Source of the DNA: Prauserella isguenensis
Lineage (GTDB): Bacteria > Actinomycetota > Actinomycetes > Mycobacteriales > Pseudonocardiaceae
Length of the DNA stretch: 64,000 nt
Direction: 5' to 3'
Assembly (NCBI RefSeq): GCF_014191605.1
Contig: NZ_JACHWU010000004.1
Coordinates: 248,001-312,000 of the forward strand
The stretch's first letter is position 1, and the number at the start of each line of letters is the position of its first letter. The notes beneath the pieces were generated by a model. The model ran no database searches, had not been told where the DNA came from, and worked only from the letters and a program-made list of their open reading frames with translations. Shown here piece by piece: positions 4,079 to 58,188 of the stretch. A program made the translations under genes and the position numbers.

Positions 4079-4115
4079 GTGGTGTCTCGGCAGATCAGCG
4101 CCCCCGCAGTTGCCG

Positions 4116-4135: not shown

Positions 4136-4166
4136 GGTGGTGGCGTCCGAACGAAGGAGTGACGTC

Positions 4167-4448: not shown

Positions 4449-4490
4449 CCGCGAAACCACAGGGGATCTCCGCAGGAGGGATGAGGCGAG

Positions 4491-4697: not shown

Positions 4698-4738
4698 GGC
4701 CGTACGCCCGCGAGGGATGACCTGAGAAGGAGGCGGTG

Positions 4739-7051
<2,313 letters not shown>

Positions 7052-7061
7052 GCGGCTTCGC

Positions 7062-7123
7062 ATGCCCCCGAGATGCCCCGGGCGCCCCACGGCGGTGCGC
7101 CCGCAAGGGCACCTTGGGGGCAT
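7062..7123. terminator. Large bidirectional terminator after copA
   Basis: ATGCCCCC at 7062-7069 pairs with GGGGGCAT at 7116-7123, enclosing further complementary GC segments (GGGCGC/GCGCCC). The long interrupted stem sits between convergent copA and the TetR gene and can serve both. Confidence 0.65.
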
Positions 7124-7177
7124 TCAGGTACAGGCACGCGTCAGCGAGCCGGTGAAGGGTGCTCGGGCGTGGGGAGT

Positions 7178-7795: not shown

Positions 7796-7884
7796 GGCCG
7801 TCGAGCATACGTCGGCCCGTGCTGTAACCCCGTTCACATCCGCCCTGTCCACCTTGCGCCTCCCCGTGATCGTCTCCAAGATTG

Positions 7885-7902
7885 AGTGTACAGTCGTTCA
7901 CT
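7885..7902. promoter_or_regulatory. Operator-like dyad for the TetR regulator
   Basis: AGTGTAC-AGTC-GTTCACT is an 18-bp inverted repeat of form AGTGNAC-N4-GTNCACT, 18 bases before the reductase start and about 90 bases from the TetR start. Size and symmetry suit a TetR dimer. Binding by the adjacent regulator is inferred. Confidence 0.65.
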
Positions 7903-7919
7903 GAAAACGGAGGCGTGAC

Positions 7920-9017
7920 ATGGCGATGCGCACAGTGGTGCGGCGTGCGGCGACCCGGCCGGGAACGTTGCCCTCCTCGCTCGCGTCGCTGGCAGAGCGG
8001 CTGCTGACCCCGCACGGGGTCGACCGCTACCTCGAGCTGATCGATCCGATGCTGGTGCGCAGGGAGATCCGCGGCGAGGTCGTGGCCCTGTGCAGGCCGA
8101 CGAAGGACTCGATCACGCTCACGGTGCGTCCGAGCAGGGCGTGGCAGGGGTTCGCCGCCGGCCAGTTCGTGCGCGTCACCGTCGACATCGACGGCGTACG
8201 GCGCACGCGGTGCTACTCGCCGGCAGGCAGCGCGCATCGCGACGGCGAACTGGAGTTCACCGTCAAGGCCCACGAGGGCGGGCTCGTCTCGCGTCACCTG
8301 CACGAACGCGGCCACGTGGGCATGGTGCTGGGACTCTCGTCCGCGGACGGCACGTTCGCGCTGCCCGAGCGCCGGCCGGACTCGATCGTGCTCATCGCGG
8401 GAGGTAGCGGTATCACGCCGGTGCTGTCGATGCTGCGGACGCTGGTCGACGAACGGTACCCCGGCGAGGTATCGCTGCTGTACTACGCGCGGACCCCGGC
8501 CGACGTGCCGTACGTCGAGGAGCTGGACGAGCTCGCGGCGCGCCGCGGCGTGCGCATCCACGTGCGGTACACGGCGGCCGACGGTCACTTCACCGCTGAG
8601 CATCTCCGCCGGGTCGCGCCGTGGTTCGCCCGCGCCACCACGTACCTCTGCGGCCCGCCGTCGCTGATGGAGTCCGTGCGCGCGCTCTACGCCGACACGG
8701 GGATCAGTGAACACCTGCACACCGAGGAGTTCACGCCGCCGGTGCTGACGGTCAACACCTCCGAGGTCGGCGGGCGCATCCGGTTCGCGCGCAGCGGCGT
8801 GGACGTCGAGAACGACGGCAGAACCCTCCTCGAACAGGCGGAGGACGCCGGACTGTCGCCCGAACACGGCTGCCGCATGGGCATCTGTTTCTCGTGCACC
8901 CAGCGGAAGGTCTCCGGCGTCGTGCGCACGGCTTCCGGCGAGGAGTCCGCCGAGGACGGCGAAGAAATCCAGCTGTGCGTCACGGCCGCGGCCGGTGACG
9001 TCGACATCGACTGTTAG
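7920..9017 (+). CDS. Ferredoxin reductase with C-terminal [2Fe-2S] domain (Rv3230c-like)
   Basis: A 365-residue single-component electron-transfer protein: FAD-binding beta-barrel with RCYSPAGS (about residues 95-103), NAD(P)H-binding domain with AGGSGITPVLSMLR (about 160), and a plant-type [2Fe-2S] domain from about residue 275 with C-x4-C-x2-C (CRMGICFSC) plus a later cysteine in IQLCVTAA. It passes electrons from NADPH to the desaturase encoded ten bases downstream. The same gene order is known for the mycobacterial Rv3230c-DesA3 stearoyl-CoA desaturase system. ATG follows a clear GGAGGCG. Confidence 0.92.
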   Translation: MAMRTVVRRAATRPGTLPSSLASLAERLLTPHGVDRYLELIDPMLVRREIRGEVVALCRPTKDSITLTVRPSRAWQGFAAGQFVRVTVDIDGVRRTRCYSPAGSAHRDGELEFTVKAHEGGLVSRHLHERGHVGMVLGLSSADGTFALPERRPDSIVLIAGGSGITPVLSMLRTLVDERYPGEVSLLYYARTPADVPYVEELDELAARRGVRIHVRYTAADGHFTAEHLRRVAPWFARATTYLCGPPSLMESVRALYADTGISEHLHTEEFTPPVLTVNTSEVGGRIRFARSGVDVENDGRTLLEQAEDAGLSPEHGCRMGICFSCTQRKVSGVVRTASGEESAEDGEEIQLCVTAAAGDVDIDC

Positions 9018-9027
9018 GAGCCACCCC

Positions 9028-10146
9028 ATGACGGGCTTGCAGGACCGGCTGACGCCGCAACAGGTCGAGGAGTTCGGCCGCGAGATGGACGAGCTGCGCG
9101 CGCGGATCGTCGCCGACCTCGGCGCCGACGACGTCGAGTACATCCAGAACGTCATCAAGACCCAGCGCGGCCTCGAGGTCACCGGACGCGCGCTGATGTA
9201 CGCCGGGTTCTTCCCGCCGGCCTGGCTCGCGGGAGTGGGAGCGCTGTCGCTGGCGAAGATCCTCGACAACATGGAGATCGGCCACAACGTCATGCACGGC
9301 CAGTACGACTGGACGCGTGACCCCGCGCTGAGTTCGCAGCGGTTCGAATGGGACAACGTGGCGCCCGCCGAGAACTGGCGGCACTCCCACAACTACATCC
9401 ACCACACCTACACCAACATCGTCGACAAGGATCGCGACGTCGGGTACGGCATCCTGCGCATCGACCCGGCGCAGAAGTGGCACCCGTACTACCTCGGCAA
9501 CCCGGTGTACGCGACGCTGCTGGCGATCTTCTTCCAGTGGGGCGTCATGCTGCACGACCTCGAGGTCGACCGGCTCGTCAAAGGGGAGCGGAAGTGGTCG
9601 GAGTTCCGCGAGGAGCGCCGCCGCATCGGCCGGAAGATGGGTACGCAGATCGGCAAGGACTACGTGCTGTTCCCGCTGCTGACCGGGCCGTTGGCGCCGC
9701 TCACCTTCGCAGGCAACGCCGCGGCCAACCTCACGCGGAACCTGTGGGCCTTCGGCATCATCTTCTGTGGGCACTTCCCTGCCGACGTCGAGAGCTTCTC
9801 CGAGGAGGAGACCGAGAACGAGACCAGGGGGCAGTGGTACCTGCGCCAGATCCTCGGCTCGGCCAACATCACCGGCGGCAAGCTCTTCCACGTCCTGTCC
9901 GGCAACCTCTCGCATCAGATCGAGCATCACCTGTTCCCGGACATCCCGGCCCGGCGGTATCCGCAGATCGCCGGTGAGGTGCGGGCGATCTGCGCGAAAT
10001 ACGGCCTGCCGTACCACACCGGTCCGTTGCACAAGCAGTTGTGGTCCGTGGCGAGGAAGATCGTCAAGTTCGCGCTTCCCGGCAGCGGGGACTCCACGCC
10101 GGAACCGGCTACAGTCGAGCGCGACCGGACACCTGCTGCGGCGTGA
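9028..10146 (+). CDS. Membrane fatty acid desaturase (DesA3-like)
   Basis: A 372-residue integral-membrane di-iron desaturase. All three histidine clusters are present: GHNVMHG (H86, H90), HSHNYIHH (H119-H126) and HQIEHHLFPD near residue 305. Hydrophobic segments lie around residues 55-80 and in the centre. The homologue DesA3 makes oleoyl-CoA from stearoyl-CoA, so a delta-9 acyl-CoA activity is likely. The ATG at 9028 has TTAGGAGCC upstream; an earlier in-frame start inside the reductase gene is ignored. Co-transcribed with the reductase that supplies its electrons. Confidence 0.93.
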   Translation: MTGLQDRLTPQQVEEFGREMDELRARIVADLGADDVEYIQNVIKTQRGLEVTGRALMYAGFFPPAWLAGVGALSLAKILDNMEIGHNVMHGQYDWTRDPALSSQRFEWDNVAPAENWRHSHNYIHHTYTNIVDKDRDVGYGILRIDPAQKWHPYYLGNPVYATLLAIFFQWGVMLHDLEVDRLVKGERKWSEFREERRRIGRKMGTQIGKDYVLFPLLTGPLAPLTFAGNAAANLTRNLWAFGIIFCGHFPADVESFSEEETENETRGQWYLRQILGSANITGGKLFHVLSGNLSHQIEHHLFPDIPARRYPQIAGEVRAICAKYGLPYHTGPLHKQLWSVARKIVKFALPGSGDSTPEPATVERDRTPAAA

Positions 10147-10176
10147 GGCCCGCAGACACGACGAAGGAGCGGTGAC

Positions 10177-10407
10177 ATGGTCGGCCGATTCGAAGCGGGC
10201 AAGGACACGGTGCAGGTGCTGACCGAACAGGCGGCGTCGCACGTCGGCAACATCGCCGGGATCATCACGGGCGCGGTGCGCGACGTCGCACGCGAGACGG
10301 GCGACTGGATGACCGAGCTGATCGAGATGCGCGAGGCGTCCGGGAAGGCCGTGGCCGACGACGAGCGGGACACCGCGCGGAGCGCTGACGACACCGCGGA
10401 GCACTGA
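10177..10407 (+). CDS. Small hypothetical protein downstream of the desaturase
   Basis: A 76-residue protein with strong ribosome binding site GAAGGAGCGG and codon use like its neighbours, 30 bases after the desaturase, so probably the third gene of the operon. Predicted amphipathic helices span residues 8-55 ([20 protein letters not shown] is mildly hydrophobic and could lie on a membrane surface), followed by a charged tail. The family is not recognised. The tail ADDTAEH and the stop codon lie in one copy of a 19-base tandem duplication. Confidence 0.65.
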
Positions 10408-10421
10408 CGACACCGCGGAGC
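10385..10421. repeat. 19-base tandem duplication over a stop codon
   Basis: CTGACGACACCGCGGAGC occurs at 10385-10402 and again at 10404-10421, with a 19-base period. The TGA of the 76-residue gene falls at the junction of the two copies. Confidence 0.9.
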
Positions 10422-10423
10422 GT

Positions 10424-10440
10424 CGGCGGTGGGCCCGCCG
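10424..10440 (+). terminator. Short GC hairpin after the desaturase operon
   Basis: CGGCGG (10424-10429) pairs with CCGCCG (10435-10440) around TGGGC. It lies between the small gene and the RraA-like gene. Confidence 0.4.
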
Positions 10441-10495
10441 CGGGCGGCGTGTGGCGTGCGCCTCCCCGGGCGGACCGGGCGCGCGGGCGGTGGTC

Positions 10496-10987
10496 ATGAT
10501 GTTTCGCGTGAGTGACGTGAGGAGTACGGCAGACCTCGTCGACGAGTACGGCGAGGCGCTGCGCGTGTGCGATACGCAGTTCCGGCAGTTCGGTTCGCAC
10601 CGGGAGTTCTCGGGCAGGGTGCGAACGGTGTCGTGCCACCAGGACAACGGCCTGGTCAAGCAGCTGCTGAACTCGGACGGTGAGGGCTGCGTGCTCGTCG
10701 TCGACGGCCGTGGGTCGTTGCAGACGGCGCTGACGGGTGACCTGATCGCCGGGGCGGCCGTGCGCAACGGCTGGGCGGGCCTGGTCATCAACGGCGCGGT
10801 GCGGGACTCGGCGGTGCTGGGCGGGTTGCCGCTGGGCGTCAAGGCGCTCGGCACGAACCCGCGCAAGAGCAGCAAGGACGGCGTCGGCGAGGTCGACATC
10901 CCGGTCGGCTTCGGCGGCATCACCTTCCACCCCGGTGACACGCTGTACGCCGACGACGACGGCGTGGTGCTGCTGCCGCGGTCCTGA
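10496..10987 (+). CDS. RraA-family protein (RNase E regulator/HMG aldolase-like)
   Basis: A protein of about 163 residues with the RraA fold. Conserved elements include [19 protein letters not shown]-type region [14 protein letters not shown] and the signature VINGAVRDS, whose Arg-Asp is conserved in members with 4-hydroxy-4-methyl-2-oxoglutarate aldolase or oxaloacetate decarboxylase activity. In E. coli RraA inhibits RNase E, but many relatives are aldolases, so function stays open. Starts at 10496, 10499 (ATG) and 10508 (GTG) are all possible; none has a clear ribosome binding site. The gene appears monocistronic. Confidence 0.85.
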
Positions 10988-11059
10988 CCGGCCTCGGGAT
11001 CCAGCACCGCCGGGTGGGCCGCTCGCGACGTGGCGTCGTGGTGCGGTCAGACTGGCGGC

Positions 11060-12109
11060 ATGCAGGCCGTCGTCTACGCCGGTTACGGCGAACCGCCCGT
11101 GCTCTCCGACGTCCCGGAGCCGGAGTGCCCGCCGGACGGGGTGGTGGTCGCGGTGCGTGCCACCGGGGTGTGCCGGTCGGACTGGCACGCCTGGAAGGGC
11201 CACGAGCAGGTGCCGCTGCCGCAGATCCCCGGCCACGAACTGGCCGGTGTGGTCGCGGAGGTCGGCCCGGAGGTCACCCGGTGGCAGCCCGGAGCGCGCG
11301 TGACGGTGCCGTTCGTGTGCGGTTGTGGCCGGTGCGAGTACTGCGCCGCCGGTGAGGCGCAGGTGTGCCCGCACCAGACACAGCCGGGATTCACCGGGCC
11401 CGGGTCGCACGCCGAGCGGGTGGCGCTGCACGCGGCGGATTTGAACCTGGTGGCGTTGCCCGATGCCGTCGGCTTCACGGCGGCGGCATCGCTCGGCTGC
11501 CGGTTCGCGACGGCTTTCCGCGCGGTGACGGCCCATGGCAGGGTCGGGCCGGGGGAGTGGCTGGCGGTGCACGGCTGTGGTGGCGTGGGCCTGTCCGCGG
11601 TGCAGATCGGGGTCGCGCTGGGCGCGCGGGTCCTCGCCGTCGACGTGGCCGATGCGCCCCTCGAGGCGGCGCGGAGTCTCGGCGCGCGGGCGGTCGTCGA
11701 CTCGGCGGCTTCCGGGCCCGCGGAGACCGCGGCGGCCGTCCGTGAACTGACCGGTGGCGGCGCCCACGTGTCGCTCGACGCCTTCGGCTCGGCCGACACC
11801 TGCATCTCGTCGGTGCGCGGCCTGCGCCGCAGGGGCAGGCACGTCCAGGTCGGCCTGCTGTTCGGCGAGGGTGCGACGCCGCCGATCCCGATGGACGTCG
11901 TCACGGCGCAGGAGCTGGAGATCTACGGCTCGCACGGGATGCCTGCACGCGACTATCCGCAGTTGCTGGGCATGCTCGCCGACGGCGGGCTGCGGCCCGA
12001 GGAGTTGATCGGCGAGACCATCGGCTTGGCGGAGGCGCCCGCCGCGCTGGCCGCCATGGATGCGCCGACCGCGGGTACGGGTATGACCGTCGTCGACCTG
12101 CCGGGCTGA
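11060..12109 (+). CDS. Zinc-dependent alcohol dehydrogenase (MDR superfamily)
   Basis: A 349-residue medium-chain dehydrogenase. Catalytic zinc ligands C38, H59 and E60 (GHE) are present, and a complete structural zinc cluster at C89, C92, C95 and C103 (CGRCEYCAAGEAQVC). The coenzyme motif is GCGGVGLSA at about residue 172, followed by an acidic residue (AVDVAD) that favours NAD+ over NADP+. The ATG at 11060 lies six bases after CAGACT, a -10-like element, suggesting a leaderless mRNA. The substrate alcohol is not predictable; the gene stands alone. Confidence 0.88.
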   Translation: MQAVVYAGYGEPPVLSDVPEPECPPDGVVVAVRATGVCRSDWHAWKGHEQVPLPQIPGHELAGVVAEVGPEVTRWQPGARVTVPFVCGCGRCEYCAAGEAQVCPHQTQPGFTGPGSHAERVALHAADLNLVALPDAVGFTAAASLGCRFATAFRAVTAHGRVGPGEWLAVHGCGGVGLSAVQIGVALGARVLAVDVADAPLEAARSLGARAVVDSAASGPAETAAAVRELTGGGAHVSLDAFGSADTCISSVRGLRRRGRHVQVGLLFGEGATPPIPMDVVTAQELEIYGSHGMPARDYPQLLGMLADGGLRPEELIGETIGLAEAPAALAAMDAPTAGTGMTVVDLPG

Positions 12110-12148
12110 GTCGCCGGCCGAACGCCCGTGCCGCGCCGTCAGGGCGGG

Positions 12149-12646
12149 TCAGCTGCGGGGTGCGGCGGTGGCCTGTTCGACGGCCAACGCGAACGAGGGT
12201 CCGTGGCCGGGCGCATGGTGGCGTGCCGCCGCGCCGAGGTGCGTCTCGCGGAGGTCGTCCATGAAGCTCTCCCACAGTGCGGGCCCGCCGCGTTCGAGGA
12301 CGTCGGCGTACAGGCTCAGGTCCTCGTCCGCGCCGAGATGCCGCCTGCCCCATACCCCGATCTGGACGAGCACGGGGACCAGGTCGATGGCGCGTTCGCT
12401 GAGGCTGTAGATCGCCTTCTGCTTGTGGCCGGGATCCTCGCTTCGGGTGAGGAGTCCGTGGTGCAGGAGGGTCTTCAGCCGGTCGGCCAGGATGTTGGTG
12501 GAAATGCCTTCGTCGCAGGTGAGCAGGTCGCGGTAGTGGCGCTTGCCCGCGAAGACGATGTCGCGCAGTACCAGCAGCGTCCACCGGTCCCCGAAGATCT
12601 CGAGTGACAGGTTGATCGGGCAGTGGGAGCGCGGGGCCGTGGACAT
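12149..12646 (-). CDS. HxlR-family winged-helix regulator
   Basis: A 165-residue MarR-like dimeric regulator. The N-terminus has the family hallmark CPINLSLEIFGDRWTLLVLR (C9 onward) and the winged helix continues with HYRDLLTCDEGISTNILADR and SEDPGHKQKAIYSLSERAID; a C-terminal extension of about 50 residues follows. HxlR proteins often respond to redox or electrophile stress through the conserved N-terminal cysteine. GGAGG lies about ten bases before the ATG. It is divergent from a PPOX flavoprotein with a dyad between them, implying control of that gene. Confidence 0.88.
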   Translation of the reverse strand: MSTAPRSHCPINLSLEIFGDRWTLLVLRDIVFAGKRHYRDLLTCDEGISTNILADRLKTLLHHGLLTRSEDPGHKQKAIYSLSERAIDLVPVLVQIGVWGRRHLGADEDLSLYADVLERGGPALWESFMDDLRETHLGAAARHHAPGHGPSFALAVEQATAAPRS

Positions 12647-12698
12647 CGGCTGCGAGCCTCCAACCGGTTGTGTTTTCGCATCGGTTGCCGCTAGTCTA

Positions 12699-12716
12699 CA
12701 ACTGCTTGCAAAGTTG
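12699..12716. promoter_or_regulatory. Dyad operator between HxlR and PPOX genes
   Basis: CAACT-N8-AGTTG with TGCTTGCA at its centre forms an 18-bp interrupted palindrome in the 96-base divergent intergenic region. Size and spacing fit an HxlR dimer site. Confidence 0.55.
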
Positions 12717-12742
12717 CATCGGTATGGATCGGAGCAGGATCG

Positions 12743-13279
12743 ATGAACGGACCACCGATCGTCGAGGCGATTCCCACCGTCGGGCGCGGCACGGAACTGA
12801 CCGACGCGCAGGCCGAGCTCGAACCACTGCCCTGGCACGAGGTCGAGCGCCGGCTCAACACCGACGCGTTCTGCTGGCTCGCCACCGTGCGACCGGACGG
12901 TGCGCCGCATGTGGCACCGCTGTTCGCGGTGTGCTCGGAGGCCCGGCTGTTCGTCTGCTCGAAGGACACCGCCCGCAAGAGCCGGAACCTCGTCGCGGAC
13001 GGTCGCTGCGTGGTCAGCACCGACGTCGACGCGGCGCACGTCGTCGTTGAGGGCCACGGCACTCGATTGTCCGATCAGGACACTCTCCGGCGCGCGTCCG
13101 AGGGGGTCGCGGACGTCTACGGCTGGCCGACGACCGTGACCGGCGACGTGCTGGACGCGCCGTTCGGGGCGCCGACGTCCGGCGGGCCGCCGTACGCGGT
13201 GTTCGAGATCGTCCCGGACAAGGCCTTCGCGTTCCCACTGGAGGGCACGTTCCTGCCGACCCGGTGGCGCTTCCCCTGA
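12743..13279 (+). CDS. Pyridoxamine 5'-phosphate oxidase-family split-barrel protein
   Basis: A 178-residue flavin or F420-binding split-barrel protein. The core spans residues 35-110 (AFCWLATVRPDGAPHVAPLF, a typical N-terminal PPOX strand pair, then RKSRNLVADGRCVVSTD). The C-terminal residues (YAVFEIVPDKAFAF) match the late strand of nitroreductase-like or F420-dependent relatives. Start supported by GGAGCAGG. Regulated probably by the divergent HxlR protein. Substrate unknown; it is not the vitamin B6 biosynthetic enzyme PdxH by length and motif. Confidence 0.85.
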   Translation: MNGPPIVEAIPTVGRGTELTDAQAELEPLPWHEVERRLNTDAFCWLATVRPDGAPHVAPLFAVCSEARLFVCSKDTARKSRNLVADGRCVVSTDVDAAHVVVEGHGTRLSDQDTLRRASEGVADVYGWPTTVTGDVLDAPFGAPTSGGPPYAVFEIVPDKAFAFPLEGTFLPTRWRFP

Positions 13280-13290
13280 GGTCCTGAGGA

Positions 13291-14508
13291 TCAGCGGCGC
13301 AGCCGGTACTCCTTGAGCAATCCCTTGCTGATGATCGTCTTCTGGATCTCGCTCGTGCCCTCGCCGATGAGTAGGAACGGTGCCTCGCGCATGAGGCGTT
13401 CGATCTCGTACTCCTTGGAATAGCCGTAGCCGCCGTGGATGCGGAACGCCTCCTGGGTGACCTCGGCGCAGTACTCGCTGGCGATCAGCTTCGCCATTCC
13501 CGCTTCCACGTCGTTGCGCGTGCCGGAGTCCTTGAGCCGTGCCGCGTTGACCATCATCTGGTGAGCGGCCTCGACCTTCGTGGCCATCTCGGCGAGCTTG
13601 AAGGCGATCGCTTGGTGGTGCGCGATGGGTTTGCCGAACGTCTCGCGCTGCTGGGCGTACTCGATCGCCAACTCGAAGGCGCGGATCGCGATGCCGCACG
13701 CGCGCGCCGAGACGTTGACCCGGCCGACCTCGATGCCGTCCATCATGTACGAGAAGCCGTGACCGGGCGCCTCGCCGAGGACCATGTCGGCACCGATACG
13801 GAAGCCGTCGAACACCGCCTCGGTGGTGTCGACGCCCTTGTAGCCCATCTTGTCGATCTTGCCGGGAATCGTCAGGCCCGGCAGTACCTCGCCGTAGCCC
13901 TCGGGTTTCTCGACGAGGAACGTCGTCAGGTTCCGGTGTGGACTGTCCGCGCCCTCGTCGGTGCGCGCCAGCAGGGCGACGAGCGTCGACGTGCCGCCGT
14001 TGGTGAGCCACATCTTGGTGCCGTCGACGACGTAGTCGCCACCGCCTTCTGCGGCGGCGCTCTCGTCTCGGGTGGCCTTGGTGCTGATCGCGGCGACGTC
14101 GGAGCCGAGGTCGGGTTCGGACATCGAGAACGCGCCCCGGACCTCGCCGGTCGCCATGCGCGGCAGGAACCGCCGCTTCTGCGCCTCGGTACCGTGCCGG
14201 GCGATCATGTGCGCCACGATGAAGTGGGTGTTGATCACGCCGGACACGCTCATCCAGCCGCGCGCGATCTCCTCGACCACGAGTGCGTAGGTCAGCAGAG
14301 ACTCGCCCAGTCCGCCGTACTCCTCGGGGATGGTGATGCCGAACAGCCCCATCTCCTTCATGCCGTCGACGATCTCGGCCGGATACGTGTCGCTGTGCTC
14401 GAGCTCCTGAGCCCGCGGGATGATCTCGTTGTCGACGAACTTCCTGACCGTGGCCAGGATCTCGGACTGCACTTCGGACAGTCCTGCGGTCTGTGCCAGG
14501 CGGGCCAT
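13291..14508 (-). CDS. Acyl-CoA dehydrogenase
   Basis: A 405-residue FAD enzyme introducing the alpha-beta double bond in an acyl-CoA. The N-terminal helical domain (FGITIPEEYGGLG), the substrate/FAD strand (GAFSMSEPDLGSDVAAISTK), TKMWLTNGG, and the C-terminal IHGGYGYSKEYEIERLMREA are all present; the catalytic glutamate is expected in IGEGTSEIQ. Residues beyond 130 include a short Ala-Glu-Gly insertion (ESAAAEGGGDY) in the beta domain. Last gene of a minus-strand operon with thiolase, SDR and class III CoA-transferase. The ATG at 14508 is chosen since the frame upstream overlaps the thiolase region without homology. Confidence 0.93.
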   Translation of the reverse strand: MARLAQTAGLSEVQSEILATVRKFVDNEIIPRAQELEHSDTYPAEIVDGMKEMGLFGITIPEEYGGLGESLLTYALVVEEIARGWMSVSGVINTHFIVAHMIARHGTEAQKRRFLPRMATGEVRGAFSMSEPDLGSDVAAISTKATRDESAAAEGGGDYVVDGTKMWLTNGGTSTLVALLARTDEGADSPHRNLTTFLVEKPEGYGEVLPGLTIPGKIDKMGYKGVDTTEAVFDGFRIGADMVLGEAPGHGFSYMMDGIEVGRVNVSARACGIAIRAFELAIEYAQQRETFGKPIAHHQAIAFKLAEMATKVEAAHQMMVNAARLKDSGTRNDVEAGMAKLIASEYCAEVTQEAFRIHGGYGYSKEYEIERLMREAPFLLIGEGTSEIQKTIISKGLLKEYRLRR

Positions 14509-14609
14509 GGCCGTTCCTCTCCGAGCGTGGGTGCGGGTTTCGCGTGCCGCGGGGCAGGGTGGGCCGGTGGCGGCGGCCCGAGGGTGCGGCGGCCACCGGC
14601 CCGCCGTTG

Positions 14610-15839
14610 TCAGCCGGTCACGCGTTCGACGACCGCGGCCAGGCCCTGCCCGCCGCCGATGCACATCGTCTCCAGGCCGTAGCGCACCTCGCGCCGGTCC
14701 ATCTCGCGGGCGAGCGTGGTGAGGATGCGCGTACCTGTCGCGCCGACGGGGTGGCCGAGGGAGATGCCGGATCCGTGGACGTTGAGGCGGTCGAAGTCGC
14801 CGTCGCCGAACTTCCATTCGCGGGTGCACGCGAGCACCTGTGCGGCGAAGGCCTCGTTGAGTTCGATGAGGTCCATGTCGGACATCGCGAGCCCGGCGCG
14901 GTCGAGTGCCTGCTGCGAGGCGGGAACGGGGCCGATGCCCATCGTCTCCGGCGGTACCCCGGCGACGGCCCAGGACACGATGCGCACCAGTGGACGCAGG
15001 CCGAGTTCGGCGGCTCTGTCGGGGTGCGTGACGAGGCACATCGCGGCCGCGTCGTTCTGCCCACTGGCGTTGCCCGCGGTGACGGTCGCGTCCGGGTCCT
15101 GGTTGCCGAGGACGGGTTTGAGTCCACCCAGCGTGTCGGGGGAGGCGTCGGCACGCGGGTGTTCGTCGTTGTCCACAACGGACTCGCTCTTGCGGGTGCG
15201 GACCGTCACGGGAACGATCTCCTCGGCGAACACGCCCGATCGCTGTGCCGCCACCGCCCGTCGGTGGGAGGTCAGTGCAAGCCGGTCCTGCTCCTCGCGC
15301 GGGATCGAGTACTCCCGGCGCAGGTTCTCGGCGGTCTCCAGCATGCCACCCGGTACAGGATGGTTCCGGCCGCCCGCGGTGATGCGGCCCCGCGCGAGCC
15401 CGTCCTCCAGCATCACGCCGGATCCCTTGACGCCCCAGCGCATCTCGGTGGAGTAGAACGCGACGTTGCTCATGCTCTCGGCACCGCCGGCCACGACCAC
15501 ATCGCTCGCGCCGCTCTGCACCTGCATCGCGGCCTGCAGCACCGCCTGCAGCCCGGAGCCGCAGCGGCGGTCGACCTGCATGCCGCCGGTCGTGATCGGC
15601 AGTCCCGCGTTGAGCGCGACCAGGCGGCCGATGGCGGGCGCCTCGCTGGTCGGATAGCAGTGCCCCAGCACGACGTCGTCGATCGCATCCGGGGCGACCC
15701 CGCTGCGTTCCAGCAGGCCTCGCAGCGCGGTTTCGCCGAGGTCGGCGGCGCTCATCGGGCGAAGGGAGCCGCCGAACCGGCCGATCGGGGTGCGGACCGG
15801 TTCGCAGACCACGGCCTCGCGGGGCATTCCGGTGCTCAT
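14610..15839 (-). CDS. Thiolase (acetyl-CoA acetyltransferase family)
   Basis: A 409-residue thiolase. The acyl-accepting cysteine is C93 (DRRCGSGLQAV), with NEAFAAQ, the catalytic histidine in GHPVGATG and the second cysteine in CIGGGQGLA near the C-terminus, so it is catalytically complete. It could cleave a 3-ketoacyl-CoA or condense acetyl-CoA. Its ATG shares one base with the stop codon of the preceding SDR gene (TGATG), indicating translational coupling. Function in this operon is taken to be the final thiolytic step of a beta-oxidation-like sequence. Confidence 0.93.
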   Translation of the reverse strand: MSTGMPREAVVCEPVRTPIGRFGGSLRPMSAADLGETALRGLLERSGVAPDAIDDVVLGHCYPTSEAPAIGRLVALNAGLPITTGGMQVDRRCGSGLQAVLQAAMQVQSGASDVVVAGGAESMSNVAFYSTEMRWGVKGSGVMLEDGLARGRITAGGRNHPVPGGMLETAENLRREYSIPREEQDRLALTSHRRAVAAQRSGVFAEEIVPVTVRTRKSESVVDNDEHPRADASPDTLGGLKPVLGNQDPDATVTAGNASGQNDAAAMCLVTHPDRAAELGLRPLVRIVSWAVAGVPPETMGIGPVPASQQALDRAGLAMSDMDLIELNEAFAAQVLACTREWKFGDGDFDRLNVHGSGISLGHPVGATGTRILTTLAREMDRREVRYGLETMCIGGGQGLAAVVERVTG

Positions 15840-16579
15840 CACATGAACCTCCCGCCGGTGACCTCGAGGACGGTCCCGGTCATATAGGACGACAGGTCGG
15901 AGGCGAGGAACAGAGCCACACTCGCCACCTCGGCCACCTCGCCGGGCCGTTGCATGGGGATCTCGGCCATCTTGCCCTCCCACACGTGTTCGGGCATGGC
16001 CTCGGTCATCGCCGAGCGGATCAGTCCCGGCTGGATCGCGTTGACGCGCACGCCGTGGTGGGCCATCTCCTTGGCCGCGGCCTTGCTCATCCCGACGATG
16101 CCCGCCTTGGCCGCGGAGTAGTTGGTCTGGCCCGCCATGCCGACCTTGCCGGACAGCGACGAGATGTTGACGATCGCGCCGCGCTGCTGGGCTCGCATGA
16201 TCGCGGACGCCTTCCGCAGACCGTTCCACGTGCCCTTCAGGTGGACGTCGATGACCTGGTCGAACTGCTCCTCGGTCATCGTCCGCATCGTGGCGTCGCG
16301 GGTGATGCCCGCGTTGTTGACCAGCACGTCGAGTGCGCCGAACCGCTCGGTGGCGGCGGCGAGGAGCGCATCGGTGTCGGAGGCCGACGTGACGTCGCAG
16401 CGCACACCCGTGGCGACGGCGGAGCCGCCGAGCTTCTCCGCCGCGGTCGTGGCCGCGGCCTCGTCGATGTCGCCGATGACCACGCGTGCTCCGTCGGCGG
16501 CGAACCGTTCGGCGATGGCGAAGCCGATGCCCTGTGCGGCGCCGGTGATCACGGCGACCTTTCCGTCGAGCAGACCCAT
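15839..16579 (-). CDS. FabG-type short-chain dehydrogenase, likely 3-hydroxyacyl-CoA dehydrogenase
   Basis: A 246-residue classical SDR with TGAAQGIG (residues 11-18), NNAG (about 88), the catalytic Ser in ISSLSG and YSAAK with the Tyr-x3-Lys pair (about 154-158). Asp near GDIDEA after the second strand favours NAD+. The ATG at 16579 is preferred because AGAAGGGA precedes it; an upstream in-frame ATG would add a proline run. Between a CoA-transferase and a thiolase, oxidation of a 3-hydroxyacyl-CoA is the most economical role. No enoyl-CoA hydratase is encoded in the operon. Confidence 0.9.
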
Positions 16580-50716: not shown

Positions 50717-51718
50717 TCATCGGACGGTCGTGCGGTCGCGCCAGTAACGTTTGCGCACGTCGAGCAGTACCGACACGTCGAACGTCGACACGCCGGGCAG
50801 GGCACCGAGGTCGGTGGTCAGGAACTCCGCGAGTCCGTCCTCGTCACGGAACACGCCCTGGTGGATCACCGACGAGTTGCCGGCGACGATGGAGACGTAG
50901 CGCGCCGAGGTGTGGCGCGCGAGCGATTCGCTGACGGCGCGGATGGAGCCGGGAGCCACGGTCAGTGCGACCACCGCTTCCAGTCCGTAGCCGAGCAGCC
51001 GGGGTTCGATCTCGACGCGTGGTCGCACGATGCCGCGTTCCAGGACCGTGTGCAGCAGGCGGTAGGCGGTGGACTGGGTGCTGCCGAGTTCCCTGGCCAC
51101 CTGGGCCGCGGTGATTCTGCCGTGCTCGCGCAGCAACCGCGCGACGCGGAGGGCCTCCTCGGTCGGTTCGGCCTGCGGAGCGGCGGGCGGCACCTCCGGC
51201 TCGGCGTGTGAACGCAGCAGGTCGACTTGCTCGCCGGACAGCCGGGGCAGCCGCCACGAGTCGGCCAGGGCGACGCCGCGCAACACCAGCTCGCTGTGCG
51301 CAGACTCCACGCCGGGGATCGTGGTGATCCGCTCGACGAGCAGGTCCTGCACGGCGAGCCGCTCCGTGGCCTGCACGGCGCAGTAGACGTCGGCGCGGCC
51401 CGCCGTGGTGGCCACCAGCTGAGACTCCGGGAGCTCCGCGATGGCCGTGGCCACCTGGCGAGCACGGCCCGCGCTCGCGCTGATCCACACGTGCCACGGG
51501 TTGCCGTTCCCGGTGACAGACCAGTCGAGCTGCCCGATGACGCGGAGCACCCCGTCGGACTCCAGACGTGCCATCCGCCTGCTGACGGTGCTGGACGAGA
51601 CGCCGAGTGCCGAGGCGATCGCGGCCAGCGGGGCCCGCGGCGTGACCTGCAGCGCGGCCACGAGATCGAGGTCGTCCGGCTCCAACTCCGCTGTGCCCGC
51701 CGGCCATCCCGTGCCCAT
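50717..51718 (-). CDS. Double-module Lrp/AsnC-family regulator
   Basis: A 333-residue protein consisting of two Lrp modules in tandem: HTH 1 at about residues 15-60 (LAAIASALGVSSSTVSRRMA), first RAM-like sensor domain, HTH 2 at about 185-235 (ITAAQVARELGSTQSTAYRL) and a second sensor domain to the end. Fused Lrp modules make a pseudo-dimer. It is divergent from an AbgT transporter and peptidase, implying control by folate breakdown products or amino acids. Confidence 0.88.
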   Translation of the reverse strand: MGTGWPAGTAELEPDDLDLVAALQVTPRAPLAAIASALGVSSSTVSRRMARLESDGVLRVIGQLDWSVTGNGNPWHVWISASAGRARQVATAIAELPESQLVATTAGRADVYCAVQATERLAVQDLLVERITTIPGVESAHSELVLRGVALADSWRLPRLSGEQVDLLRSHAEPEVPPAAPQAEPTEEALRVARLLREHGRITAAQVARELGSTQSTAYRLLHTVLERGIVRPRVEIEPRLLGYGLEAVVALTVAPGSIRAVSESLARHTSARYVSIVAGNSSVIHQGVFRDEDGLAEFLTTDLGALPGVSTFDVSVLLDVRKRYWRDRTTVR

Positions 51719-51828
51719 CGACCGCCCCTACGCGTCACCCGTTCTGCTCGCCGAATCCGGCGCCGTCTGCATGAACCTAGCAGCCGTCCGGGGCATGACG
51801 AGCAAAACATGCGAAACGAACTCGTAAC

Positions 51829-51858
51829 TTGACCGAACCATTCGTTAGGATCTCTAAT
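51829..51858 (+). promoter_or_regulatory. Promoter and repeat upstream of the AbgT gene
   Basis: TTGACC (51829-51834), an 18-base spacer and TCTAAT (51853-51858) resemble a sigma-70 promoter. AACTTG occurs directly repeated at 51826-51831 and 51864-51869, 38 bases apart, bracketing the promoter, and may be contacted by the Lrp regulator. Confidence 0.55.
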
Positions 51859-51894
51859 CAAGCAACTTGTCACCTACGGCGAACGGGGGCCTTC

Positions 51895-53451
51895 GTGACT
51901 TCCACGGAGACGAACGCGGTTCCGTCCGCGACCTCGCGGCCGATGCGGTTGCTGTTGCGGCTGCTCGGCGTCATCGAACGTGTCGGCAACAAGCTGCCGC
52001 ATCCCTTCTGGCTGTTCGTGCTGATGGCGGGCGTCGTCATCGCGGCCAGCGCGGTCCTGGACGCCCTCGGCGCCTTCGCGGTCTCGCCCGCCGACGGCGA
52101 GCGGGTCGAGATCACGAGCCTGCTGTCCCAGGCAGGCCTGCACATGATGCTCGGCGACGCCGTCGACAACTTCGCGTCGTTCCCGCCGCTGGCGCTGATC
52201 GTCGTGGTGATGCTCGGCGTCGCGGTCGCCGAGCGCAGCGGCATGCTCACGGCGTTGCTGCGGCGCACGGTCACCCGGGTGCAGCCGAAGTATCTGACCT
52301 TCGCGCTGGCGCTCGCCGGGATCTCCGCGAGCGTGGCCTCCGACGCCGCCTACGTCGTACTGGTGCCGCTGGGTGCGCTCGTGTTCAAGGCGGCCGGACG
52401 CAGCCCGATCCTCGGCCTGGTCGTGGCGTACGCGTCGATCGCCGCGGGGTACGACGCCTCGGTGTTCATCACCGCGGGCGACGTGCTCTTCGCCGGGATC
52501 ACGACCAGCGCCGCCGAACTCGTCTCGCCCGGGCACGTCGTCAGCCCGCTGGCGAACTACTTCTTCACCGCCACCTCGGCGATCGTGCTCGCACTGGTGA
52601 TCACCGCCGTGACCGAGTTCGTGCTCACCCGGCGCGCGCAGAGCATCGAGGTCGACGGCGACGGGCTCGACGAGGAGCTCGGCTCGATGACGCTGTCCGA
52701 CACGGAGCGGAAGGGCCTGCGCAACGCGGGCTGGATGCTGCTCGGCATCGCCGTCGTGGTGGCCGGCGCGTTGATCCCGCCGGGTTCGCCCGCACGCGGT
52801 GACGACGGTGGGCTGCTCGACTCGGCCGTGGTGACCGGCATCGCCGTCGTGCTCGGGCTGACGTTCCTGCTCACGGGATACGTGTACGGCCGCACCACCG
52901 GGAGCCTGTCGAGGGCCCGCGAGATCCCGGCCGCGATGGGGCAGGGCGTGCGCGACCTGGCGCCGGTGATCGTACTGTTCTTCGCGGCGAGCCAGTTCAT
53001 CGCCTATTTCAAGTGGACGAACATGGGCGAGGTCGTGGCGATCCGCGGCGCGGAGCTGCTCGACCATGCCGACGTGCCGACGATCGTGATGTTCCTCGGG
53101 ATGTTGGTCGCGGCGTGCGTCATGGGTGTGCTGCTCACCAGCGGGTCCGCGTTGTGGACGCTGATCGCGCCCGTGTTCGTGCCGATGTTCCTGCTGCTGA
53201 ACGTTCCGGCGGAGACGACGCTCGCGCTGTACCGCATCGCGGACTCGGGCACCAACCTGATCAGCCCGATGAGCCCGTACTTCGCGATGGCTCTCGGCTT
53301 CCTGCAGCGGTACCGGAAGCAGGCGGGCATCGGAACGCTGATGTCGCTGACGTTGCCGATCGCTCTGAGCGTGATCACGGCGTGGACGGTGTTGTTCCTG
53401 ATTTGGTGGGGGATCGGCATTCCGCTCGGCCCCGGCGCGCCCGTGCGCTGA
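51895..53451 (+). CDS. abgT: AbgT-family p-aminobenzoyl-glutamate transporter
   Basis: A 518-residue membrane protein with about 12 hydrophobic segments. Conserved AbgT features include IERVGNKLPHPFWLFVLMAG at the N-terminus, ASDAAYVVLVPLGALVFKAA, YNFF-type region PLANYFFTATSA and SPMSPYFAMALGF. The family imports p-aminobenzoyl-glutamate or exports sulfonamide-like compounds. GTG at 51895 is the most plausible start, with only GGGGG upstream. A CPG2-type peptidase follows after 54 bases, which favours the import role. Confidence 0.92.
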   Translation: MTSTETNAVPSATSRPMRLLLRLLGVIERVGNKLPHPFWLFVLMAGVVIAASAVLDALGAFAVSPADGERVEITSLLSQAGLHMMLGDAVDNFASFPPLALIVVVMLGVAVAERSGMLTALLRRTVTRVQPKYLTFALALAGISASVASDAAYVVLVPLGALVFKAAGRSPILGLVVAYASIAAGYDASVFITAGDVLFAGITTSAAELVSPGHVVSPLANYFFTATSAIVLALVITAVTEFVLTRRAQSIEVDGDGLDEELGSMTLSDTERKGLRNAGWMLLGIAVVVAGALIPPGSPARGDDGGLLDSAVVTGIAVVLGLTFLLTGYVYGRTTGSLSRAREIPAAMGQGVRDLAPVIVLFFAASQFIAYFKWTNMGEVVAIRGAELLDHADVPTIVMFLGMLVAACVMGVLLTSGSALWTLIAPVFVPMFLLLNVPAETTLALYRIADSGTNLISPMSPYFAMALGFLQRYRKQAGIGTLMSLTLPIALSVITAWTVLFLIWWGIGIPLGPGAPVR

Positions 53452-53505
53452 CGACGAACACCGTGCGACGACAAGAGTCCGTGCCGATGACAAGGGAGAG
53501 AACAC

Positions 53506-54654
53506 ATGTCGGAGTTGACCGTGCACAGCTGGGTCGAGCGTGCGCTGCCGGAGATGACCGCAGACCTGCGCAGGCTCGTCGAGCTAGAAACCCCCAGCGA
53601 CGACACGACGTTGCTGAGTTCGGGGATCACGGCGATCGAGCGTTGGCTCACCGAACGGCTCGGCGAACCGGGCGAGCGGCGCCTGCACGACGGTGCCAAG
53701 TACGGGGACGCGCTCGAGGTCGCCTATCCCGGTACCGCACCCGGGACCGTGCTGGTGCTGTGCCACTACGACACCGTCTGGCCGGAGGGCACGCTGACCG
53801 ACTGGCCGTTCACCGTCGACGGCGACCGCGCGAGTGGGCCCGGCGCGTTCGACATGAAGCTCGGTCTCGTGCAGGCGGTGTGGGCGCTGCGGTGCCTCGG
53901 AGAGCTGGGCATGCCGCGCCCGACGGTGCGCCTGCTGCTCAACGGTGACGAGGAGATCGGCAGCCCGGTCGCACGGCCGATCATCGAACGGCTCAGCAAG
54001 GACACCCTGGCGACGTTGGTGTGCGAGGCCTCGGCGGACGGAGCTCTGAAAACCGTACGCAAGGGTGTGGGGCTGTTCGACGTCACGGTCACCGGCGTCG
54101 AGTCGCACGCGGGCCTCGATCCCGACGCGGGCGCCAGTGCGATCCACGAGCTCGCGCGGCTGGTCGAACAGATCGCGGCGCTGGGCGACCGCGACCGGGG
54201 TACCACCGTCAACGTCGGTCTCGTCGAAGGCGGTACGGGCCGCAACGTCGTCGCCGGGTCCGCGACGTGCGGCATCGACGTTCGGGTCTCCGAACCCGGT
54301 GAAATGGCCAGGATCGACGCGGCGTTCGCGGGGCTGCGGACGGTCGACGGCCGGGCGAGCGTGACCGTCGAGGGTGAGTGGAACCGGCCGCCGATGGTGC
54401 GCAACGCCCGTTCGGACGAGCTGTTCGACATCGCCGAACGCATCGCCGCCGACGCGGGCTGGGACCTCGGGCAGGTGAGCGTCGGCGGTGCCAGCGACGG
54501 CAACTTCGTGGCCGCGCTGGGCAGGCCCGTGCTGGACGGGCTCGGCGCGGTCGGCGGCGGCGCCCATGCCCGGCACGAGCACGTGCTGCTCAGCCACGTC
54601 CCCGGCCGGACGGCGCTGATCGCGGGGCTGCTCATGGCGTTGGCGGACAGCTGA
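53506..54654 (+). CDS. M20-family glutamate carboxypeptidase (CPG2-like)
   Basis: A 382-residue di-zinc peptidase. Zinc ligands and base are recognisable: H87 in CHYDTV, D116 in FDMK, general base E149 and ligand E150 in GDEEIGS, and a late His in ARHEHVLLSHV. No signal peptide, so it is cytoplasmic. CPG2 relatives release glutamate from folates and p-aminobenzoyl-glutamate, which is what the AbgT transporter upstream would deliver. AAGGGAGAGA precedes the ATG. Confidence 0.9.
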   Translation: MSELTVHSWVERALPEMTADLRRLVELETPSDDTTLLSSGITAIERWLTERLGEPGERRLHDGAKYGDALEVAYPGTAPGTVLVLCHYDTVWPEGTLTDWPFTVDGDRASGPGAFDMKLGLVQAVWALRCLGELGMPRPTVRLLLNGDEEIGSPVARPIIERLSKDTLATLVCEASADGALKTVRKGVGLFDVTVTGVESHAGLDPDAGASAIHELARLVEQIAALGDRDRGTTVNVGLVEGGTGRNVVAGSATCGIDVRVSEPGEMARIDAAFAGLRTVDGRASVTVEGEWNRPPMVRNARSDELFDIAERIAADAGWDLGQVSVGGASDGNFVAALGRPVLDGLGAVGGGAHARHEHVLLSHVPGRTALIAGLLMALADS

Positions 54655-54676
54655 ACCCGTAGGACCGGACCAGTCC

Positions 54677-54714
54677 ACTCCAACCGCGTGCGCCCGTGCC
54701 GCACGCGGTGGAGT
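54677..54714 (+). terminator. Strong hairpin terminator after the M20 peptidase
   Basis: ACTCC-A-ACCGCGTGCG (54677-54692) pairs with CGCACGCGGT-GGAGT (54700-54714), a 15-bp stem with one bulged A and a 7-base loop, ending the AbgT operon. Confidence 0.8.
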
Positions 54715-54792: not shown

Positions 54793-56061
54793 ATGGCCGG
54801 AAACATCTTCGTGCTCGGGCTCGACGAGCGGAACATGCGCACCTTGCACGACGTCGCGGGTTTCGCGGACTACCGGTTCCGACCGTTGCTGTCGGTCGAG
54901 GAGCTGGTGGAAGCGGACAATCTGCCGATGCGGTCGTTGCTCGACAAGGCGCGCAGGCAGCTGTCCGAGTTCGACGACACGGTCGACGCGATCGTGGGCT
55001 ACTGGGACTTCCCCGTGAGCTCGATGGTGCCGATCCTGTGCCGCGAGCGCGGCCTACGCTCGGCCACGCTGGAGTCGGTACTCAAATGCGAACACAAGTA
55101 CTGGAGCCGTGTGGTCCAGTCCGAGGTCGTCGACGAACATCCGCGGTTCGCCGCCGTGCCGCTGGACGCGACAGAGCCACCCGGCAACCTCGGATTTCCG
55201 TTCTGGCTCAAACCGGTGAAGGCGTTCTCGTCCCAGTTGGCCTTTCGAATCGAGGACACGGCCGGCTTCACCGATGCGCTCGCCCGCATCCGCGAGGGCA
55301 TCGAGCGCGTCGGTGAGCCGTTCGACTTCGTCCTCGAGCACGCCGATCTGCCCGAGGAGATCGGCCGGCTCGGTGGGCAGACGTGCCTGGCGGAGGAGGC
55401 CGTCGGGGGCAAGCAGGTCACCGTCGAGGGCTACGACGCGGGCGACGGCGTGCACGTGTACGGCATCGTCGACTCGCACGACTACCCCGACACCTCGAGC
55501 TTCCAGCGCTATCAGTACCCGTCCTCGTTGCCGGAGCACGTGCAGACGCGCCTGGCCGACATCTCGCGGCGCGTGATCGAGCACATCGGGCTGCGTTCGG
55601 TGCCGTTCAACATCGAGTACTTCTGGGACCCCGACAGCGGTGCGATCACCCTGCTGGAGATCAACCCGCGGCACTCCCAGTCGCACGCCATCCTCTTCGA
55701 CCTGGTCGACGGTGTGCCCAATCACCAGTGCGTGCTGCGGCTCGCGGTCGGTGCCGACCCCGGTCTGCCCTATCGGCAGGGACCGTACCGAGTGGCGGCG
55801 AAGTGGTTCGTCCGGCGGTTCTCGGACGGGGTCGCACGGCGGGTGCCGACCCCGGAGGAACTGGCCACCGTGGAGCGCGAGGTGCCCGGCTGCCGGGCCG
55901 AACTGATGGTGAGCGAAGGCGAACGACTCTCGGATCTGCGCGAGCAGGACAGTTACAGCTACGCCTACGCCACCGTCCACGTGGGTGCCGCCGACGAACG
56001 GGAGTTGAAGGACAAGTACGAGCGCTGCCTCGAGTTCCTCCCGTTCGAGTTCACCGACTGA
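54793..56061 (+). CDS. ATP-grasp ligase of unknown substrate
   Basis: A 422-residue protein of the ATP-grasp superfamily (carbamoyl-phosphate synthase/biotin-carboxylase-like). After a Rossmann-type N-terminus (IFVLGLDERNMRTL) come GFPFWLKPVKAFSS, the ATP-binding lysine strand, and FNIEYFWDPDSGAITLLEIN with PRHSQSH, the Mg2+-binding Glu-x-Asn. Such enzymes join a carboxylate to an amine or thiol through acyl phosphate. The gene is followed 93 bases later by a CocE-type hydrolase. Start at 54793; an upstream extension lacks similarity to anything recognised. Confidence 0.82.
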   Translation: MAGNIFVLGLDERNMRTLHDVAGFADYRFRPLLSVEELVEADNLPMRSLLDKARRQLSEFDDTVDAIVGYWDFPVSSMVPILCRERGLRSATLESVLKCEHKYWSRVVQSEVVDEHPRFAAVPLDATEPPGNLGFPFWLKPVKAFSSQLAFRIEDTAGFTDALARIREGIERVGEPFDFVLEHADLPEEIGRLGGQTCLAEEAVGGKQVTVEGYDAGDGVHVYGIVDSHDYPDTSSFQRYQYPSSLPEHVQTRLADISRRVIEHIGLRSVPFNIEYFWDPDSGAITLLEINPRHSQSHAILFDLVDGVPNHQCVLRLAVGADPGLPYRQGPYRVAAKWFVRRFSDGVARRVPTPEELATVEREVPGCRAELMVSEGERLSDLREQDSYSYAYATVHVGAADERELKDKYERCLEFLPFEFTD

Positions 56062-56154
56062 GCGGCATGCACGGGAAGCGGCAGCTCGCCTCGTCCGCGA
56101 AGACCGGCCCCGGCCGAAGCGACAGCGCACCCGACCGGAAGGGAGTGCCTTGCG

Positions 56155-58188
56155 ATGCGTGAAGTGACCAGCCTGCCCCACACGGTGACCGAGGAGGAGC
56201 ATTTCTGGATCCCGGTCTCGGACGGGACGCGGCTGGCAGGACGGCTGTGGCGGCCGTCGTCCTCGGACGACGACCCGGTCCCCGCGATCCTGGAGTTCAT
56301 CCCGTACCGCAAACGGGACGGAACGGCCAAACGCGACTCGATCCACCACCCCTACCTGGCAGGCCACGGCTACGCCTCCGTGCGCGTGGACCTGCGCGGC
56401 AGCGGCGACTCCGAGGGTGTGCTCACCGGTGAGTACCTGGAACAGGAACTCGTCGACGCTGAGGACGTGCTGGCCTGGCTGGCGGCGCAGCCCTGGTGCG
56501 ACGGGAACACCGGCATGATGGGCATCTCCTGGGGAGGCTTCAACGCGCTGCAGGTCGCCGCGCGCAGGCCCGAGAGTCTCGGCGCCGTTGTCACGGTGTG
56601 CTCGACCGACGACCGCTACGCCGACGACGTGCACTACATGGGCGGATGCCTGCTCGGGGACAACCTGTCGTGGGCGTCGACGATGTTCGCCCAGACCTCC
56701 ACACCGCCGGATCCGAAGCTGGTGGGCGATGGTTGGTTCGACATGTGGCAGCAGCGCCTGCACGGCAGTGGCCTCTGGCTCGAGGACTGGATGCGCCATC
56801 AGCGGCGAGATGACTTCTGGCGCCACGGTTCCATCTGTGAGGAGCCCGGTTCACTGCAGTGCCCGGTGCTCGCCGTCAGCGGTTGGGCCGACGGCTACTC
56901 GAACGCGGTGTTCCGGTTGATGGAGCACCTCGACGTGCCCCGCAAGGGGTTGGTCGGACCCTGGTCGCACAAGTATCCGCACCTGGGCAACCCCGGCCCG
57001 GCGATCGGTTTCCTGCAGGAGCTGGTCCGCTGGTGGGACCACTGGCTCAAGGGTGAGGACAACGCGGTGATGGACGAGCCGATGCTGCGCGTGTGGATGC
57101 AGGACAGCGTGCCGCCGTCGACCGCGTACGAGGAGCGGCCCGGCCGGTGGGTCGGCGAACCGTCGTGGCCGTCGACGCACGTGCGATCGCAGCGGCTTCC
57201 GTTGCGCCGCCACAGGATTCTCACCGGCGACGACAGCGGCGGGCCGACCTCGCCCGACGGTCTGGTCCTGCAGTCGCCGCTGTCGGTCGGCCAGTTCGCG
57301 GGGAAGTGGTGTTCCTACAGCGCCCCGCCGGACTTGCCGTACGACCAGCGAGAGGAGGACGGCGGCTCGCTGGTGTTCGACACCGAGACACTGAGCGAAC
57401 CGTGGGAGATTCTCGGCGCCGCCGAGGTGGAACTCGAGGTCTCCGTGGACCGTCCGGTGGCGATGCTCGCGGCGCGGCTGTCCGATGTGGCCGAGGACGG
57501 CAGGGCGACCCGAGTGACGTACGGCCTGCTGAACCTCACCCACCGGAATTCGCACGACCAGCCGGAAGTGCTCGAACCCGGCGAACGGTATCGGGTGTCG
57601 CTGGCGCTCAACGGTGTCGCCCAGACCTTCCCGGCGGGGCACCGCATCCGGCTGTCACTGTCCACATCGTACTGGCCGTTGGCCTGGCCGCCGCCGAAAC
57701 CGGTGCAGCTGACCGTGTACCCCGACACCAGTACGTTGACCCTGCCGACGCGTCCGGTCGAGGAGCCCGACGAGGTCACGCTGCGGCCGTTCGACCCGCC
57801 GGAAGGGGCGCCCCGTCTCAGCACGACGACGCTGCAGCCGGGCGATCATCGGTGGCAGGTGTCGCGGGACCTCGTCGACTACGCGTCGCAACTGGAGGTC
57901 GTCAAGGACTCCGGCACGGAACGCTACGAGGACATCGACCTGGAGATCTCGCAACGCGGCGAGGAACGCTACCGGTGGGTCGGCGACGACTTCTCGTCCG
58001 TGCGAGGTGAGACGGTCTGGCGGGTCAGCTTCGCCAGGGAGGGCTGGCACGTGCAAACGGACACGCGCACGGTGTTGACCTCCACCCCGGAACACTTCGT
58101 GCTGCACGCCCAGCTCGATGCGTATCACAACGGGGAACGGGTCACCTCGCTCAACTGGAGCTCGATGATCCCTCGGGATCACGTGTGA
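56155..58188 (+). CDS. CocE/NonD (S15) family serine hydrolase
   Basis: A 677-residue enzyme with an alpha/beta-hydrolase domain, helical cap and C-terminal jelly-roll domain (from about residue 430), the layout of cocaine esterase and X-Pro dipeptidyl peptidase. The nucleophile is S125 in GISWGGFNA; a probable catalytic histidine is in GPWSHKYPH. No signal peptide, so cytoplasmic. Family members hydrolyse esters or amide bonds of acyl donors. Paired with an ATP-grasp ligase it might reverse or trim the product. GGAAGGGAG upstream of ATG. Confidence 0.9.
   Translation: MREVTSLPHTVTEEEHFWIPVSDGTRLAGRLWRPSSSDDDPVPAILEFIPYRKRDGTAKRDSIHHPYLAGHGYASVRVDLRGSGDSEGVLTGEYLEQELVDAEDVLAWLAAQPWCDGNTGMMGISWGGFNALQVAARRPESLGAVVTVCSTDDRYADDVHYMGGCLLGDNLSWASTMFAQTSTPPDPKLVGDGWFDMWQQRLHGSGLWLEDWMRHQRRDDFWRHGSICEEPGSLQCPVLAVSGWADGYSNAVFRLMEHLDVPRKGLVGPWSHKYPHLGNPGPAIGFLQELVRWWDHWLKGEDNAVMDEPMLRVWMQDSVPPSTAYEERPGRWVGEPSWPSTHVRSQRLPLRRHRILTGDDSGGPTSPDGLVLQSPLSVGQFAGKWCSYSAPPDLPYDQREEDGGSLVFDTETLSEPWEILGAAEVELEVSVDRPVAMLAARLSDVAEDGRATRVTYGLLNLTHRNSHDQPEVLEPGERYRVSLALNGVAQTFPAGHRIRLSLSTSYWPLAWPPPKPVQLTVYPDTSTLTLPTRPVEEPDEVTLRPFDPPEGAPRLSTTTLQPGDHRWQVSRDLVDYASQLEVVKDSGTERYEDIDLEISQRGEERYRWVGDDFSSVRGETVWRVSFAREGWHVQTDTRTVLTSTPEHFVLHAQLDAYHNGERVTSLNWSSMIPRDHV

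Follow-up and report, generated by a model that had tools for sequence, protein, structure and literature searches.

Why does a gene for an ATP-grasp enzyme stand next to one for a CocE/S15-type hydrolase in Prauserella isguenensis, and could the two proteins serve a common function? We addressed this question in a window of 64,000 nucleotides (the whole stretch of DNA that was analysed), where a sequence-only reading had placed the two genes consecutively on one strand and had proposed that they form one functional unit. Both open reading frames lie where it had put them (Table 1). We favour the view, with a probability of roughly 0.55, that the pair is a two-enzyme operon in which an ATP-dependent amide ligase, the amide being probably dipeptide-like, and a dedicated amide/ester hydrolase would set or recycle the pool of one compound.

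Table 1. Features of the gene pair and of its upstream border in the window
Feature	Positions	Strand	Basis or remark
G+C-rich hairpin without T-run, possible terminator, between the upstream M20 peptidase gene and the ATP-grasp gene	about 54676..54714	+	fold
ATP-grasp enzyme P0001, complete, 422 aa	54793..56061	+	open reading frame
Intergenic gap of the pair, 93 nt	56062..56154	+	ribosome-binding-site-like GGAAGGGAG ahead of the hydrolase start
CocE/S15 alpha/beta-hydrolase P0002, PepX_C domain and C-terminal extension past PepX_C, 677 aa	56155..58188	+	open reading frame

Layout and borders of the pair

The ATG that opens the ATP-grasp gene coincides in the alignment with the start point of its orthologues. 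Folding of the gap between the two genes gave no significant hairpin (z +1.22), and a consensus promoter scan found nothing. Upstream, the fold containing the hairpin reaches -45.4 kcal/mol, with a shuffle z of -4.25; the hairpin is kept in a shortened form in the nearest relative and only partially in the next one. The sequence-only reading had considered the pair as being isolated from the upstream peptidase operon by a strong terminator. The separation is supported, mainly because the upstream neighbourhood is common to only three Prauserella genomes (that of the window and two others), the pair itself being found in many different surroundings. The terminator is only plausible, as the hairpin has no T-run and was not called by a terminator scan.

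The genes just upstream (positions 50717-54654) encode an AbgT-family transporter, an M20 peptidase, to which glutamate carboxypeptidase models are the nearest, and a divergent Lrp-type regulator with two domains, and apparently form an import-and-cleave unit. A general link of the pair to these AbgT/M20/Lrp genes was ruled out on the same distribution.

Conservation and co-divergence of the two genes

A relative of the ATP-grasp enzyme was found in at least 582 stretches of GTDB genomes. Gene order was compared in the best 80 of these loci, which belong to Prauserella, Amycolatopsis, Saccharomonospora, Saccharopolyspora, Streptomyces, Nocardiopsis, Actinomadura, Jiangella, Blastococcus, Nocardia and other genera; many of the named carriers are marine or halophilic species, and ordinary Streptomyces are found as well. 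In 68 of these 80 loci, the hydrolase gene comes immediately after the ATP-grasp gene, in the same orientation; in 74 it is present within the retrieved locus. Two of the six loci devoid of it are near a contig edge, and several come from genomes that carry the hydrolase at another locus. The spacing in relatives ranges from -4 to 137 nt (median 21.5), some of the genes overlapping. Since order, strand and short spacing are kept across many actinobacterial genera, the pairing goes beyond chance. The genes that flank the pair vary between genomes: clustering of the neighbourhood open reading frames and a Pfam tally revealed no third recurrent gene, the most frequent Pfam family accounting for no more than 4 of the 63 adjacent genes, so that the unit consists of two genes. 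No RNA family was found near the pair, except for a tRNA in one locus. The order differs in a few loci, and in two genomes (G018 and G031) both genes are kept 16-28 kb apart, which speaks against the making and breaking of an amide by the pair.

Co-occurrence, on which the sequence-only reading had staked the pairing, was observed. Each protein was used as a query on the genome of the window and 60 relatives; both close relatives are present in the same 18 of these 61 genomes and neither in the other 43. The cut that defines a close relative was chosen after the scores had been seen, with a clear score gap below both groups, the next scores being 85 bits for the ATP-grasp enzyme and 673 bits (about 50% identity) for the hydrolase. 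This identical presence/absence has a Fisher probability of 8e-16, on an assumption of independence that related genomes do not satisfy. In a sample of 397 genomes across the phylum, a close S15 relative was found in 14, all of which (14/14) also have the ATP-grasp gene. Four further genomes carry the ATP-grasp gene alone; in one of them the contig ends 167 nt downstream, and the other three, from one family, encode a clearly more divergent ATP-grasp protein with no close S15. Extra ATP-grasp copies with no S15 nearby are found in Haloechinothrix and Saccharopolyspora. Extra or divergent copies of this kind also count against the proposed amide cycle.

Some loci harbour rearranged or broken ATP-grasp genes. 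In G009 (L036, positions 8633-13759), two tandem ATP-grasp genes are followed by one hydrolase gene, and a third ATP-grasp gene is located elsewhere in the genome. In Prauserella salsuginis (L049, positions about 9560-9575), a frameshift near codon 117 splits the ATP-grasp gene and leaves the hydrolase gene intact. The ATP-grasp gene of G019 is also split; decay or a draft-assembly error could account for either case.

The two proteins also diverge together. Their pairwise distances are correlated with a Mantel r of 0.94 (74 pairs), and the partial Mantel r given RpoB, taken as the organism distance, is 0.83 (16 genomes, permutation p 0.0005). In two genomes of the same genus, RpoB is 96-98% identical to that of the window's genome and the pair proteins only 64/73%; two other same-genus genomes are devoid of the pair. 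This mismatch and these absences point to a pair that may have moved horizontally as a unit. Such signs of transfer and the patchy distribution would also fit a loose co-inheritance, in which two separate small-molecule enzymes are kept together through shared transfer. The identical presence/absence, the retention of both genes where they lie apart (G018, G031) and the distance correlation that persists after RpoB correction argue against this explanation, which we regard as very improbable. Comparative genomics strongly supports the view that the putative ligase and hydrolase share one pathway, and the single functional unit that had been proposed is sustained by the conserved order, strand and spacing, the identical presence/absence and the correlated divergence.

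Predicted activities of the two proteins

P0001 belongs to the ATP-grasp superfamily, with a match to Pfam ATP-grasp_4 (PF13535) of 51.9 bits for a cut-off of 27 (8.6e-14). Its putative ATP/Mg residues (K102, K140, E201, E275, E289, N291 and R293) are invariant in 16 orthologues, and its signature motifs are HKYWSR, KPVK and NPR-x-SQSH. The structure of P0001 is predicted with confidence (pLDDT 92.4). The solved structures nearest to this model are 3vot (BL00235, E 6e-22) and 3vmm (BacD, 2e-21), RizA (4wd3, 5e-19) also being high among the matches; the predicted fold is nearest to that of L-amino acid ligases. This is in agreement with the carboxylate-activating ligase proposed from the sequence, and P0001 is probably a carboxylate-amine ligase. 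From the modelled fold and the conserved residues, we infer that it would form an amide in an ATP-dependent manner. Like the L-amino acid ligases BacD/YwfE, BL00235 and RizA, P0001 is a stand-alone polypeptide with an ATP-grasp fold and conserved ATP/Mg residues. It shares with them 13-16% identity over the structural alignment and differs by an invariant NPR-x-SQSH loop at the place where BL00235 has ARIG, by its CocE/S15 hydrolase partner and by a neighbourhood in which no biosynthetic cluster genes recur. An NCBIfam search of P0001 gave no model above cut-off; the earlier statement that no known pathway signature is apparent stands for the ligase, which reaches the cut-off of no pathway-specific family model.

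The likeness of P0001 extends to biotin carboxylases, PurK and carbamoyl-phosphate synthase, and this weakens the case for amide formation. Biotin carboxylases and PurK are interspersed among the fold matches, biotin carboxylase folds having scores just below those of the amino acid ligases; the profile match to carbamoyl-phosphate synthase, at the NPR-x-S-x-S region, is as good as that to BL00235 (E 1.9e-9). The ATP-grasp enzyme could have another activity, carboxylase-like or consisting in carbamoyl/phospho transfer, with the hydrolase as a partner in a catabolic step. Nonetheless, amino acid ligases are the best structural matches, the profile alignment with BL00235 covers 225 columns, and the Pfam tally of neighbours shows no recurrent biotin carrier or transferase subunit near the pair, so that this other activity appears unlikely.

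P0002 has the Pfam domains Peptidase_S15 (7.6e-66) and PepX_C (1.8e-49) and belongs to the CocE/NonD family (TIGR00976, 227 bits for a cut-off of 66.3). An assignment as an Xaa-Pro dipeptidyl-peptidase was rejected, the PRK05371 models giving 107 bits against a cut-off of 642 and the other two models less. Residues S125, D246 and H272, together with Y51, are invariant in 17 orthologues and aligned with the Ser-Asp-His triad and the oxyanion Tyr of CocE, the roles of which are presumed to be the same here. P0002 thus resembles the CocE/NonD hydrolases (cocaine esterase, alpha-amino acid ester hydrolase and X-Pro dipeptidyl peptidase) by its S15 domain with PepX_C, its triad and its oxyanion Y51. 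It differs from them by a C-terminus that is about 100 residues longer and by its own clade, tied to the ATP-grasp gene: the pair-associated hydrolases form one clade with a support of 94/71 with its deepest member and 100/99 without it. The N-terminus, read by eye and not by a predictor, shows no apparent signal peptide, which is coherent with the cytoplasmic S15-type hydrolase that had been announced. Cocaine esterase is the best fold match of P0002 (23% identity). Two points weigh against the breaking of an amide: the confidence of the model is only moderate (mean pLDDT 66), and CocE-type enzymes are often esterases, so that amide cleavage is not given.

Relatives outside the pair and proposed function

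Hydrolase relatives outside the pair clade, with about 42-53% identity, were considered in 15 plasmid loci, a non-random set drawn from annotated top hits. In 13 of them (Mesorhizobium amorphae, Roseivivax, Aureimonas, Phyllobacterium, Mesorhizobium AR07, Salipiger, Pseudooceanicola, Fuscovulum, two Paracoccus, Ketogulonicigenium, Ruegeria and a Streptomyces plasmid), the hydrolase gene is beside genes for a substrate-binding protein, two permeases and ATP-binding subunits, arranged as in dipeptide/oligopeptide ABC importers. That the importer is of the peptide type is stated outright by the annotation in Roseivivax and by Pfam SBP_bac_5, OppC_N and oligo_HPY on the Streptomyces plasmid; for the remaining importer loci it was deduced from the layout. 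The other two loci carry glycine-betaine transporter genes (Ancylobacter) and a polyamine transporter (Shinella). An Ensifer record devoid of annotation was left aside. The 13 importers point to small peptide-like substrates for the hydrolase, and the importers beside these relatives suggest that the intracellular targets cleaved by the wider subfamily may be small molecules of peptide-like or cationic nature. Hydrolases of the pair clade have the predicted ATP-dependent ligase, in place of importers, as their constant partner.

On the Ancylobacter plasmid (L136, positions 3787-12790), two CocE/S15 genes lie amid glycine-betaine-type ABC transporter genes, and on the Fuscovulum plasmid (L141, positions 5376-16305) the CocE/S15 gene adjoins a trimethylamine methyltransferase family gene; a role of these genes in quaternary amine metabolism is possible. 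Proteobacterial ATP-grasp relatives (32-39%) were not retained as the same system, as no S15 gene adjoins them. They are found on Sphingobium and Paraburkholderia plasmids (L131, positions 6069-10380, and L132, positions 8827-10194), next to an epimerase-VKOR fusion or an FAD oxidoreductase and with copper/heavy-metal genes near. The ATP-grasp gene of Mesorhizobium amorphae located 5 kb from S15 was also discarded, being only 24% identical and having an IS element between.

The hydrolase relatives mostly accompany importers of the peptide type, with one glycine-betaine and one polyamine case, so that their wider role looks like the cleavage of incoming small molecules. This would favour a reverse succession of events, in which an ester or amide, either imported or endogenous, is first split by the hydrolase and the freed acid or amine is then conjugated by the ligase, for salvage, detoxification or storage. 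However, clustering of open reading frames and the Pfam tally revealed no importer or catabolic gene that recurs beside the actinobacterial pair, and we consider this succession as rather doubtful.

We infer instead a make-then-break direction acting on a single compound. The ATP-grasp enzyme would phosphorylate a carboxylate with ATP and couple it to an amine to form a small amide, most likely dipeptide-like or an aminoacyl conjugate. The cytoplasmic CocE/S15 hydrolase would then cleave this small amide, or a closely related ester or amide, by means of its Ser-Asp-His triad, and the net effect would be to set or recycle the pool of that compound. By analogy, the pair may be a new version of a known kind of association, in which an ATP-grasp ligase has a hydrolase devoted to it. 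Cyanophycin synthetase with cyanophycinase, and the NAGGN osmolyte genes with their peptidase, are systems that we take to work alike, with an ATP-dependent peptide-bond maker and a dedicated breaker. They presumably differ from the pair by their ligase and peptidase families and by the acetyltransferase or amidotransferase partner that the pair does not have, and homology is not implied. No description of the pair was found in the open-access papers that our search covered. Tentatively, it could be an undescribed two-gene module moving horizontally among Actinobacteria. Such a module would both produce and recycle one new small amide of dipeptide-like kind, which might serve as a signal or in stress, and its ligase would belong to a new ATP-grasp subfamily with the NPR-x-SQSH loop as its hallmark.

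The matching presence/absence and the co-divergence of ligase and hydrolase, with no third partner, provide a clean handle on the predicted metabolite, and the two enzymes may suffice to reconstitute the pathway in vitro. Moreover, many culturable and deletable Streptomyces are carriers, among the at least 582 GTDB stretches that encode an ATP-grasp relative.
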